Below are positions 25,031 to 62,149 of a stretch of 64,000 nucleotides of DNA, one piece after another. The notes below the pieces were generated by a model. The model was not told where the DNA came from. It saw only the letters and a list, made by a program, of their open reading frames with translations, and did no database searches. The DNA comes from Agrococcus beijingensis (GTDB lineage: Bacteria > Actinomycetota > Actinomycetes > Actinomycetales > Microbacteriaceae): assembly GCF_030758955.1 (NCBI RefSeq), contig NZ_CP132360.1, forward strand, positions 610,587-674,586, in the 5' to 3' direction. The position numbers and the translations under genes are program-made. How positions within the stretch are numbered: the first letter of the stretch is position 1; every line of letters starts with the position of its first letter.

Positions 25031-25115
25031 CCCCTGAGGGGGCATGGCACTGAGCGGGCATGCACCTGTGCGGGCATGGCACCTGTGCGGGCATGGCACC
25101 TGTGATGGGATGGGA
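25031..25115. repeat. Degenerate 16-17 bp tandem repeat before the symporter gene
   Basis: Four or five units around CACCTGTGCGGGCATGG occur between sufU and the next gene, the two central ones identical. Each carries GGGCATGG. They occupy nearly all of the 105-bp gap, so they must include the leader of the downstream gene if it has its own promoter. Confidence 0.65.
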
Positions 25116-37293: not shown

Positions 37294-37397
37294 GCTGGCC
37301 CACTGTTGAGCAGGCCGTGGGCAAGTCTAGCAAAGCAACTGGGTGGTCTCGATACGCGGCCGCGGCGCTGCTCGACCAGCGGCCGATCAGGGTGTGC

Positions 37398-44727: not shown

Positions 44728-46371
<1,644 letters not shown>

Positions 46372-46420
46372 CGGAGGCCCAGTGGGGCCTTCGCGCGAGG
46401 GCCGCCGAGCGCGCCAGCGC

Positions 46421-46720
46421 GAGGATGGCCGGGTAGCCGCCCGGGAACGCGCCTCGCCCAGTCGACTGGCGCCTCCCGCAGGTGAGTGGCGGCTCGCGCA
46501 GGTGAGTGGCGCGGGCCGCGGCCGACTGGCGCCCCCCCGAGGTGATGGCCGGGTAGCCGAGGTGGATCGCGCCTCGCCCAGTCGACTGGCGCCTCCCGCA
46601 GGTGAGTGGCGCCGCCCGCGGGTGAGTGGCGGCTCCCGCAGGTGAGTGGCGGCTCCCGCAGGTGAGTGGCGCCTCCCGCAGGTGAGTGGCGGCTCCCGCA
46701 GGTGAGTGGCGGATTGCTCA
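46421..46720 (+). repeat. 20-bp tandem repeat array, forward orientation
   Basis: Fifteen contiguous 20-bp units can be laid out in strict register. Eight of them carry GGTGAGTGGC and the commonest unit is GAGTGGCGGCTCCCGCAGGT. Three units have GACTGGCG instead. Units from about 46425-46500 recur at 46545-46620, giving a 120-bp higher-order period. Units are contiguous, with no unique spacers. The array fills the left half of the 575-bp gap between pgm and the capA-like gene. Confidence 0.95.
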
Positions 46721-46767
46721 TATTGGAGGCGATTCCGCTCGTCCTCTGCCACCAGTGAGCGCCAACC

Positions 46768-46940
46768 GGCCAGTCAGGCACGGGAGGGCGCCAGTCAGAC
46801 ACCGCAGGCGCCACTCAGGCACCGCAGGCGCCACTCAGCCACCGCAGGCGCCACTCAGGCACCGCAGGCGCCACTCAGCCACCGCAGGCGCCACTCAGAC
46901 ACCGCAGGCGCCACTCAGGCACGGGAGGCGCCACTCGGGC
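46768..46940 (-). repeat. 20-bp tandem repeat array, opposite orientation
   Basis: Nine units of about 20 bp read, on the minus strand, GAGTGGCGCCTGCGGTGCCT in the main version. The end units read GACTGGCG or GAGTGGCGCCTCCCGTGCCT. They share the GAGTGGCG(CC) core with the first array but face it across an about 47-bp unique core (46721-46767). Confidence 0.95.
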
Positions 46941-46946
46941 GGCGGG

Positions 46947-48197
46947 CTACGGGGCGAACGAGTCCGTGACGATGCGCACGTCGGGACCCAGCGCATCCGT
47001 CACGAGGGCCAGGCCCGACTCGACCGTCAGGTCGTTGCGCCAGGCCGAGCGGGTGATCGGCTCGGCGGCGTCGACGAGCGGATGCAGCTGCAGGTTGCGG
47101 CGGTTGATCCACTGCTGCGAGACGAACTGCTGCGGCGTCAGGTCGAAGTGCATGTAGATCGGCACCGCCGCCGGGTCGATTACCTCGACCGGCCCGCCCG
47201 GCACGCCGACGAGCGAGAACTGCGCCACCGCGCTCACCACCCGCGGAATGGCCATCTGCGTCGTCACCGAGTTGCCCAGCGAGTAGTAGACGAACGCGCG
47301 CGAGCCGTCGGCGCGCGTCAGCCACTCTGCCTCCTGCAGCACGTGCGGATGCGTGCCGAGGATCACCTCGGCGCCCAGGTCGGCCAGACGCTGCGCCTGC
47401 TCCCGCTGCCGCGCGTTGACGACCGTCGAGTACTCGTCGCCCCAGTGCACCGCGATGATCGTCGCGTCGGCGATCTGCTCGGCCTCGGCCATCTGCTGCT
47501 CGACGAGCGGATCGTCGAGCCACGTCACGACGGTGTCGTTCGTGGGCGTGTTCGACAGGTCGACGAAGTTCAAGAAGGCGACCGTGAGCGGCCCGTCGAC
47601 GCCCACGGGCACCTCGGCGGTCGGCACGAGCGCCTGCTCCTCGGCCGAGCGGAAGGCGCCGGAGATGAGCAGCGGGTCGAGGCCGTCCCACACCGCCCGC
47701 GTCAGGTCGACGCCCACCTGCCCGCGGTCGAACGTGTGGTTGTTGCCGAGGCCGATCGTGTTGCAGCCGGCCGCGGCGATGCCCTCGGCGAACTCGACCG
47801 GAGCGTTGAACGCCGGGAAGTACGACAACCCCAGCTCGACGCCGCCCGAGGGTGCCTCCTGGTTGCAGTAGACGAGGTCGCTGTCGGCCCAGATGGGCTT
47901 GGCGGCGTCGAAGAACTGGCCGTAGTCGTACCCGCCGTCCTCCGTGCGCGCATCCATCGTCACCGAGTCGTGCGGCAGGATGTCGCCCATCGCGCTCACC
48001 GAGACGGTGACCGGCTCGGCTGTCGGCGTGGGCGTCGGGGTCGCGGATGCCGTGGGCTCGGCCGCGACGTCGCTGGCCGAGGGTGCCGGGTCGAGCGAGC
48101 CCTGCTGGCAGCCGGTGAGCAGCAGTGCGGCGCCCGCCGTGAGCGCGGCGAGGCGCACGAGACGTGCGGAACGGGTGCGCGGAGCCTGCTGCAGCAT
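46947..48197 (-). CDS. CapA-family lipoprotein (poly-gamma-glutamate synthesis type)
   Basis: The 416-residue protein has a lipoprotein signal peptide with lipobox LLTGC at Cys30 and a Ser/Thr/Pro linker to about residue 63. The CapA metallophosphatase-like domain contains SAMGDILPHDSV, DSDLVYCNQEAPSGG, TIGLGNNHTFDRG, IAVHWGDEYS and VILGTHPHVLQEAEW, which give the expected Asp, Asn and His metal ligands. CapA was first described in poly-gamma-glutamate capsule export, but no pgsB or pgsC genes are near. The role is therefore unclear. TAGCCT (48204-48209 complement) lies 6 nt before the ATG, a leaderless start. Confidence 0.92.
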   Translation of the reverse strand: MLQQAPRTRSARLVRLAALTAGAALLLTGCQQGSLDPAPSASDVAAEPTASATPTPTPTAEPVTVSVSAMGDILPHDSVTMDARTEDGGYDYGQFFDAAKPIWADSDLVYCNQEAPSGGVELGLSYFPAFNAPVEFAEGIAAAGCNTIGLGNNHTFDRGQVGVDLTRAVWDGLDPLLISGAFRSAEEQALVPTAEVPVGVDGPLTVAFLNFVDLSNTPTNDTVVTWLDDPLVEQQMAEAEQIADATIIAVHWGDEYSTVVNARQREQAQRLADLGAEVILGTHPHVLQEAEWLTRADGSRAFVYYSLGNSVTTQMAIPRVVSAVAQFSLVGVPGGPVEVIDPAAVPIYMHFDLTPQQFVSQQWINRRNLQLHPLVDAAEPITRSAWRNDLTVESGLALVTDALGPDVRIVTDSFAP

Positions 48198-59680: not shown

Positions 59681-60064
59681 TCAGCCGCGTCCGCGCAGGC
59701 GGTCGATCTCGCGCCGCTCGCGGCTGCTGGGCCTGCCGGCGCCCCGCGGCCGGTGCGGCACCTGCGCCGCGTCGATCGCACTCGGCCGCGCGGGCGAGCG
59801 ATCCTCGAACGCCTCGGCCGCCGCGGGTGCCGCGACCCGCTTGGGCAGCAGCTGCTTGACGATCACGATGCGGTCGAAGCCGTGCACGCGCACGCGCACC
59901 TCGTCGCCGATCCGCACCGGCTGGGCGGCCTTCGCCGCCTGGCCGTTGACCTTGACGTGGCCGCCCCTGCATGCCTCGGTGGCCGCGGCCCGCGTCTTCA
60001 CCAGCCGCACGGCCCAGACCCAGACGTCGAGGCGCACGCGGCCCGCCGCCCTGGACTCGCTCAT
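59681..60064 (-). CDS. RNA-binding S4-domain protein (Hsp15/HslR-like)
   Basis: The 127-residue protein has an S4 domain at about 9-70, with RLDVWVWAVRLVKTRAAATE and GGHVKVNGQAAKAAQPVRIGD. A basic C-terminal tail ends SRERREIDRLRGRG. Hsp15 of E. coli, the closest named type, binds stalled 50S subunits carrying nascent chains; a ribosome-linked role is likely here too. The start is the third of three ATGAGCGAG sequences after the recQ stop, each overlapping the stop of the preceding short frame, so translation is probably coupled to recQ. Confidence 0.9.
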   Translation of the reverse strand: MSESRAAGRVRLDVWVWAVRLVKTRAAATEACRGGHVKVNGQAAKAAQPVRIGDEVRVRVHGFDRIVIVKQLLPKRVAAPAAAEAFEDRSPARPSAIDAAQVPHRPRGAGRPSSRERREIDRLRGRG

Positions 60065-60094
60065 GCTCTGCGCTCGCTCATGCCCCGCGCTCGC

Positions 60095-60098
<4 letters not shown>
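60062..60098 (-). repeat. 17-bp repeat carrying a stop/start ladder
   Basis: ATGAGCGAG occurs three times at 17-bp spacing on the minus strand (starts at 60098, 60081 and 60064). Copy 1 overlaps the recQ stop as ATGA. The first two open frames encode MSERGA and MSERRA and end in TGA overlapping the next ATG. The third is the S4 gene start. Confidence 0.85.

Positions 60099-62149
<2,051 letters not shown>

Follow-up and report, generated by a model that had tools for sequence, protein, structure and literature searches.

Opposed 20-bp Repeat Arrays in Agrococcus Suggest a Selfish-Looking DNA Hairpin with a Nuclease Partner

What fills the gap between two convergent genes of Agrococcus beijingensis, in which 20-bp repeats face each other across a short unique core? 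The gap lies in the stretch of DNA analyzed here (the window; 64,000 nucleotides, positions 610,587–674,586 of the forward strand of contig NZ_CP132360.1, assembly GCF_030758955.1), and a prediction made from its letters (the original prediction) had described the two opposed arrays. Block and core scans bear out that arrangement (Table 1). We propose that the element is probably a non-autonomous, dispersed hairpin, each arm of which has been multiplied in tandem, and that it forms a two-part system with a fixed nuclease gene. The association of gene and hairpins is in itself very probable, and a role of the nuclease in spreading or maintaining the hairpins is, from the sequences, reasonably likely. 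On a wider scale, the evidence leans slightly toward nuclease genes of the AbiEi-Vsr type (DUF559/MTES_1575), with their private hairpins across actinomycetes, being an independent counterpart of REPIN/RAYT, in which the hairpin sequence switches repeatedly and the arrays of Agrococcus reach 45 units.

The repeat family in the genome and the genus

The window repeat is not a product of chance, because a two-unit pattern (up to two mismatches) matches the genome (2.89 Mb) 145 times in forward and 85 times in reverse orientation, against 0 and 4 matches for a reversed-pattern control. Inspection of the two-unit matches gave at least 12 places with arrays. Among 299 genomes of the family (85 genera), a three-unit pattern matched three, A. 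beijingensis included, all of one genus (Agrococcus); in a scan of a named-genome collection, 43 of the 46 stretches obtained were likewise from Agrococcus (A. lahaulensis, A. pavilionensis, A. baldri, A. terreus, and strains Marseille-P2731 and HG114). The repeats are found genome-wide and genus-wide, contrary to the isolated locus that the original prediction had named as a sign of chance expansion. The three outsiders (L067, L070, and L091; a Methylococcaceae metagenome-assembled genome, a Streptomyces, and an Actinomycetota metagenome-assembled genome) carry short repeats of 20-bp period with a similar core; no nuclease homologue lies within the 5.7–8 kb examined around them. The two-unit pattern also occurs once in one 5-kb viral contig, where there is no three-unit chain, and a search of a plasmid collection with the window forward array gave no match.

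Fifty-five elements were compared, one for each of 12 A. beijingensis and 43 named stretches, the outsiders being excluded; most stretches were found via three exact units, so that weak elements are missed, and genes were called with a simple codon model. Some named stretches and genus genomes come from the same organisms, and the two sets are never summed. Thirty-six elements are two-armed, every pair facing inward, and 19 are one-armed. Core-to-core spacing (up to 60 bp) is exactly 20 bp in 210 of 216 cases in A. beijingensis and 402 of 425 elsewhere, with an almost fixed core and a drifting 11-bp spacer in the unit. Unit number varies among near relatives, with arms of 6 and 8 units in L088 and 8 and 6 in L090, whose flanking proteins are 94–98% alike. 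A replichore-polar motif, which an early list of single cores had seemed to indicate, was rejected when fuller searches found both strands and inward-facing pairs.

Within the window, the core TGASTGGCG was sought with up to two mismatches. The original prediction had ascribed a shared core to the units of both arms, which holds for all but one reverse unit and for most forward units; four forward blocks (at 46421, 46441, 46541, and 46561) are degenerate. The predicted 120-bp higher-order period of the forward arm is present, and local expansion is supported. The arms are also able to pair: an inverted comparison gave 129 nt at 72% complementarity, and the single-stranded DNA fold of 46583–46937 has an energy of −121.9 kcal/mol versus a shuffled mean of −90.0 (z −7.3; 0 of 100 shuffles as stable). 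A coding repeat was ruled out, 20 not being a multiple of 3, and in an Rfam scan of 46300–47100 the sole match up to E 1 scores 17.7 bits versus a gathering score of 71.

Might such arrays be local slippage expansions or assembly artifacts with no partner at all? The forward arm of L052 (4920–5808) comprises 45 units, of which some 43 are identical, and stands opposite an 11-unit arm of mixed units; one arm seems to have expanded very recently. Ambiguous bases (N), singly or in runs, lie in or beside arrays of L050 (4594–4980), L053 (5178–5313), and the end of L056, followed in L050 and L056 by repeated sequence; in the assembly carrying these three stretches, gaps or merges thus fall at arrays, and N stretches or contig ends also occur in or beside arrays in L078, L093, and G011. 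Against these points, the same family, with the same core and diverged spacers, recurs in six Agrococcus genomes from separate assemblies. As a full account, expansion or artifact is refuted, its probability being close to nil.

A nuclease gene and its flanking hairpins

Outside the window, an element at genome positions 854675–856252 encloses the gene for one two-domain protein, with an AbiEi-like DNA-binding domain and a Vsr/I-Bth0305I-type nuclease domain whose fold is of the EDxHD/Vsr type. This partner gene and the matching hairpins of its relatives, all beyond the window, were missed by the original prediction. The gene is single-copy and flanked by cognate opposed repeats. In 18 of 24 Agrococcus genomes it lies between the same two genes, which from their sequences we take to encode an ANTAR-type response regulator and a thioesterase-like protein, and a further genome has it at the end of a contig; no AbiEii nucleotidyltransferase gene was found beside it in the 18 loci with both neighbors. 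At least five matches to three core patterns occur in 18 of the 19 genomes with the gene at the locus and in 0 of the 5 without it (p = 1.4 × 10−4), in a test that is partly circular, as the gene's own flanks are counted, and confounded by species kinship, G003 and G010 being incomplete.

The two 450-bp flanks of each nuclease homologue were compared with gene length limited (n = 74; 75 loci less one duplicate), and scores were set against the 99th percentile of a null made up of 684 mismatched distant pairs. Fifty of the 74 homologues lie above this null (14 of 17 close, 36 of 57 distant); in a first run, with a poorer null that contained same-core pairs and with over-extended gene starts, 37 of 75 lay above a 99% point of 72. 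Arrays are plainly visible on both sides of L113 and L124, two of the three close homologues that fell short; L124 is a split gene. No control gene exceeded the null (0 of 131), all of them coming from Agrococcus stretches, so that the other genera are without a matched control. The flank match is gene-specific: paralogues within one genome carry different repeats (median score 77 for own flank pairs, 29 for cross pairs), and the own partner was best in 34 of 40 cases.

Hairpins of like sequence stand on both sides of 26 of the 57 distant homologues, with arms of 12–29 nt. Because the 20-nt arms of L129 and L170 resemble single units, the Agrococcus arrays are best seen as hairpins with multiplied arms, the approximately 20-nt arm of distant relatives apparently corresponding to the 20-bp unit. 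A CGA shared at the outer arm ends was frequent, not general, and was dropped as a lead.

Scattered copies also occur in another order. The plasmid collection includes homologues from three Arthrobacter and one Tsukamurella (30%–38% identity). On visual inspection all four have flanking hairpin pairs; their scores are 68, 52, 71, and 87, with three exceeding 53. The Tsukamurella hairpin matched seven records, the nuclease record included, at 18 places with both strands counted; of the matches shown, H12 alone overlaps an annotated gene. In the five records examined of the six further ones, the approximately 23-nt arms are nearly identical and the loops differ, and each copy starts no more than 11 bp past a stop codon, four of the five between convergent genes. 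Some of these records may be pieces of chromosome, since several, though named as plasmids, carry housekeeping genes. One Arthrobacter hairpin was found at 10 places in two records.

The repeats beside the nuclease gene are of three core types, labeled by hand: GGCG, GGTCA, and GGCCA. On a tree of 23 homologues the types need 6 changes, where the least possible is 2 and the shuffled mean is 10.8, so that core type follows kinship, yet has switched repeatedly. Both flanks have the same type in the loci read, except for the mixed L119 (G008). The commonest scattered core is also the flank core in 15 of the 17 genomes with at least 10 matches in all, counts that include the nuclease's own flanks, and G014 is nearly tied between cores (49 to 43). 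Small cross-counts are meaningless, since one mismatch is permitted per pattern and the difference between two of the patterns is slight. Three related genomes with GGCG flanks (G014, G016, and G022) hold GGTCA copies too, which on sequence are what a switch with relics would leave.

Several findings weigh against a link between nuclease and hairpins, beside the limits given above for the presence test, the control genes, and the scattered-core counts. In G006 the nuclease is split into two frames, yet there are 70 repeat matches, and in G009, which has the orthologue, none of the three core patterns is matched. No flank match was obtained for 24 of the 74 homologues. A core other than that beside the nuclease is the more numerous in G016 and G020; in G018 every GGCCA match among those listed lies at the nuclease gene; and a reversed-pattern control gave 11 matches in G016, 5 in G014, 3 in G020, and 3 in G001, and 7 in G016 in a second search. 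Another Arthrobacter hairpin is represented by its own two copies only, and the hairpin of G217 by one further half copy, in one of five genomes of its genus.

Placement between genes and the pgm/capA locus

The original prediction correctly placed the window element between convergent genes, which from their sequences we take to be a phosphoglucomutase gene (pgm) and a capA-like gene (Table 1). Such a setting is frequent, not universal: 31 of the 47 elements with genes called on both sides lie between convergent genes, compared with 59 of 395 element-free gene pairs (p = 4 × 10−13), and 16 lie in tandem or divergent gaps; eight elements at stretch ends are omitted from this count, and the background is local, as the stretches were chosen for their arrays. 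A same-strand gene lies upstream of 77 of 89 arrays, three more having no upstream gene at all; this bias is explained by facing arms between convergent genes, and the array as part of an mRNA 3′ end was rejected.

The convergent setting, together with the ability of the arms to pair, might indicate two-way terminators or insulators, and a two-way transcription block was among the roles first suggested. We consider this very unlikely as the main role. The 16 elements in tandem or divergent gaps and the 59 convergent pairs that lack an element in the same stretches do not fit it, GC hairpins resembling ordinary terminators are seen by eye to separate the gene from its array in L047, L053, and L055, and a T-run consensus scan of 46300–47000 gave no terminator-like site (weak evidence here, as a T run is required). 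Terminators would also leave the bracketed nuclease unexplained, and the presence of the repeats follows the nuclease gene.

Table 1. The repeat element of the window and its surroundings
Feature	Position	Strand	Evidence
Forward arm: 15 in-register 20-bp blocks, core TGASTGGCG in 11	46421..46720	+	Sequence and core scan
Unique-sequence loop (47 bp) between the arms	46721..46767	.	Sequence
Reverse arm: nine 20-bp blocks, core in eight, read on the minus strand	46768..46940	-	Sequence and core scan
120-bp higher-order repeat, copy 1	46400..46519	+	Self-comparison
120-bp higher-order repeat, copy 2, 82% identical to copy 1	46520..46639	+	Self-comparison
Phosphoglucomutase (pgm) gene, left convergent neighbor	44728..46371	+	Name assigned from sequence
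CapA-like gene, right convergent neighbor	46947..48197	-	Name assigned from sequence
Intergenic stretch common to array-free G018 and G011	46372..46443	+	Comparison; match fades after about 46430

The match with G018 and G011 runs from the pgm stop to about 46430–46443 and then parts, placing the element's left border there. The pgm gene is present in 22 genomes; in seven besides A. beijingensis the capA-like gene lies 42–420 bp away without an array (G018, G011, G013, G006, G002, G005, and G017), G014, G004, and G023 have it approximately 1 kb from pgm with no array between, and in 11 it was not found within the examined stretch. In two other species (L085 and L097), facing arrays adjoin the same capA-like gene. 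Because the pgm/capA site is array-free elsewhere and the capA-like gene has arrays in L085 and L097, the window element appears to be young or easily lost.

These comparisons also bear on the possibility that the repeats are host-useful sites bound by the nuclease or another protein (nucleoid, supercoiling sink between convergent genes, or self-marking), the flank match then reflecting autoregulation and not mobility. The strict 20-bp period, equal to two helical turns, the convergent setting, and the AbiEi-like domain of the nuclease agree with this explanation, which we nevertheless consider unlikely: placement varies by species, with the pgm/capA site array-free in the seven genomes with close genes; matching hairpins stand downstream of the nuclease gene as well, unexpected for an operator; and several genomes have few or no repeats. 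The arrays may have the protein-binding role suggested by the original prediction, and from the sequences the likely binder would be the nuclease.

Other repeats were seen at or near this locus. In the pgm/capA gap of G018 and G011 (L197 and L199), a different inverted pair, GACCGGTGGAG...CTCCACCGGTC, stands in place of the array. At approximately 37340–37397 of the window, the pair GGTCTCGATACG...CTGCTCGACCAGC has a similar inverted counterpart between pgm and the capA-like gene of G006 (L202) and looks like another scattered hairpin family. A 17-bp-period array of approximately four copies of GGGCATGGCACCTGTGC lies at 25031–25104, in a gap between same-strand genes, and a second short 17-bp array at 60056–60104; these are possibly other repeat families.

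Relation to known systems

Hairpins linked to a nuclease gene most resemble the REPIN/RAYT systems, which, to our knowledge, are so far the only case of scattered hairpins in bacteria whose partner enzyme is known. As described in two papers, REPIN/RAYT systems comprise a fixed single-copy gene flanked by its cognate repeats, with inverted pairs scattered elsewhere, switches of repeat class (“orthoswitch”), and relics (PMC3116915; PMC3686654). To that extent, Agrococcus is alike in its single-copy nuclease gene bracketed by cognate repeats, in inverted pairs with conserved arms and non-autonomous copies scattered in extragenic DNA, in repeat classes that vary among orthologous genes occupying the same locus, and in relics that persist after gene breakage. 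In contrast, the enzyme combines a Vsr-type nuclease with an AbiEi-like domain, and the Agrococcus arms are multiplied as 20-bp tandem arrays. PF01797 (Y1/HUH tyrosine transposase) had no match in the A. beijingensis genome in a search that was positive in 5 of 14 control genomes. A GTAG/GTGG at the arm start is not kept, unit position 4 being C in 29% of the unit types of A. beijingensis, and the Tsukamurella arms begin ACATCTTTCG. With no Y1 transposase and no kept tetranucleotide, the system is better said to work like REPIN/RAYT than to be one.

The partner differs from the EDxHD/Vsr homing endonucleases (I-Bth0305I, 3r3p) in that no host gene or intron is interrupted, the place of the gene is conserved and single, and the presumed targets are amplified. 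It differs from AbiE toxin-antitoxin systems (AbiEi antitoxin, 6y8q) in that no AbiEii toxin gene adjoins it and the domain is fused to a nuclease. The elements themselves recall foldback elements, which have long inverted ends of short tandem repeats and a variable middle, possibly with a gene; the Agrococcus elements share such ends, whereas foldback elements are known from eukaryotes, with other enzymes. BIME/REP arrays of enterobacteria likewise lie after gene ends, often between convergent genes, as do the Agrococcus arrays; however, the Agrococcus unit is no clear palindrome, and the units of an arm all point in one direction.

We infer binding, cutting, copying or mobilization, and the order of events as follows. 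The AbiEi-like domain would read the approximately 20-bp arm, and the Vsr/I-Bth0305I-type domain would nick or cut the hairpin or cruciform, whereupon repair could copy hairpins into other intergenic sites. Landing between two 3′ ends would harm little, and the arms would lengthen afterwards through slippage or unequal crossover.

Published work on Vsr-like nucleases and on REPINs exists; a search of open papers by title or the start of the abstract, a weak test, found none tying DUF559 or such nucleases to hairpins. Our observations suggest that the element family is a selfish-looking DNA hairpin in many copies, and that it belongs to a little-noticed enzyme-plus-repeat partnership in actinomycete bacteria. 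If this is true, a second, unrelated enzyme class would have the REPIN/RAYT architecture, and such partnerships would arise repeatedly; the large “DUF559” gene family would gain a role; and the way in which a nuclease gene and a hairpin maintain one another would become open to direct study, in pairs that are small, gene-specific, and often switching, so that recognition could be compared among them.
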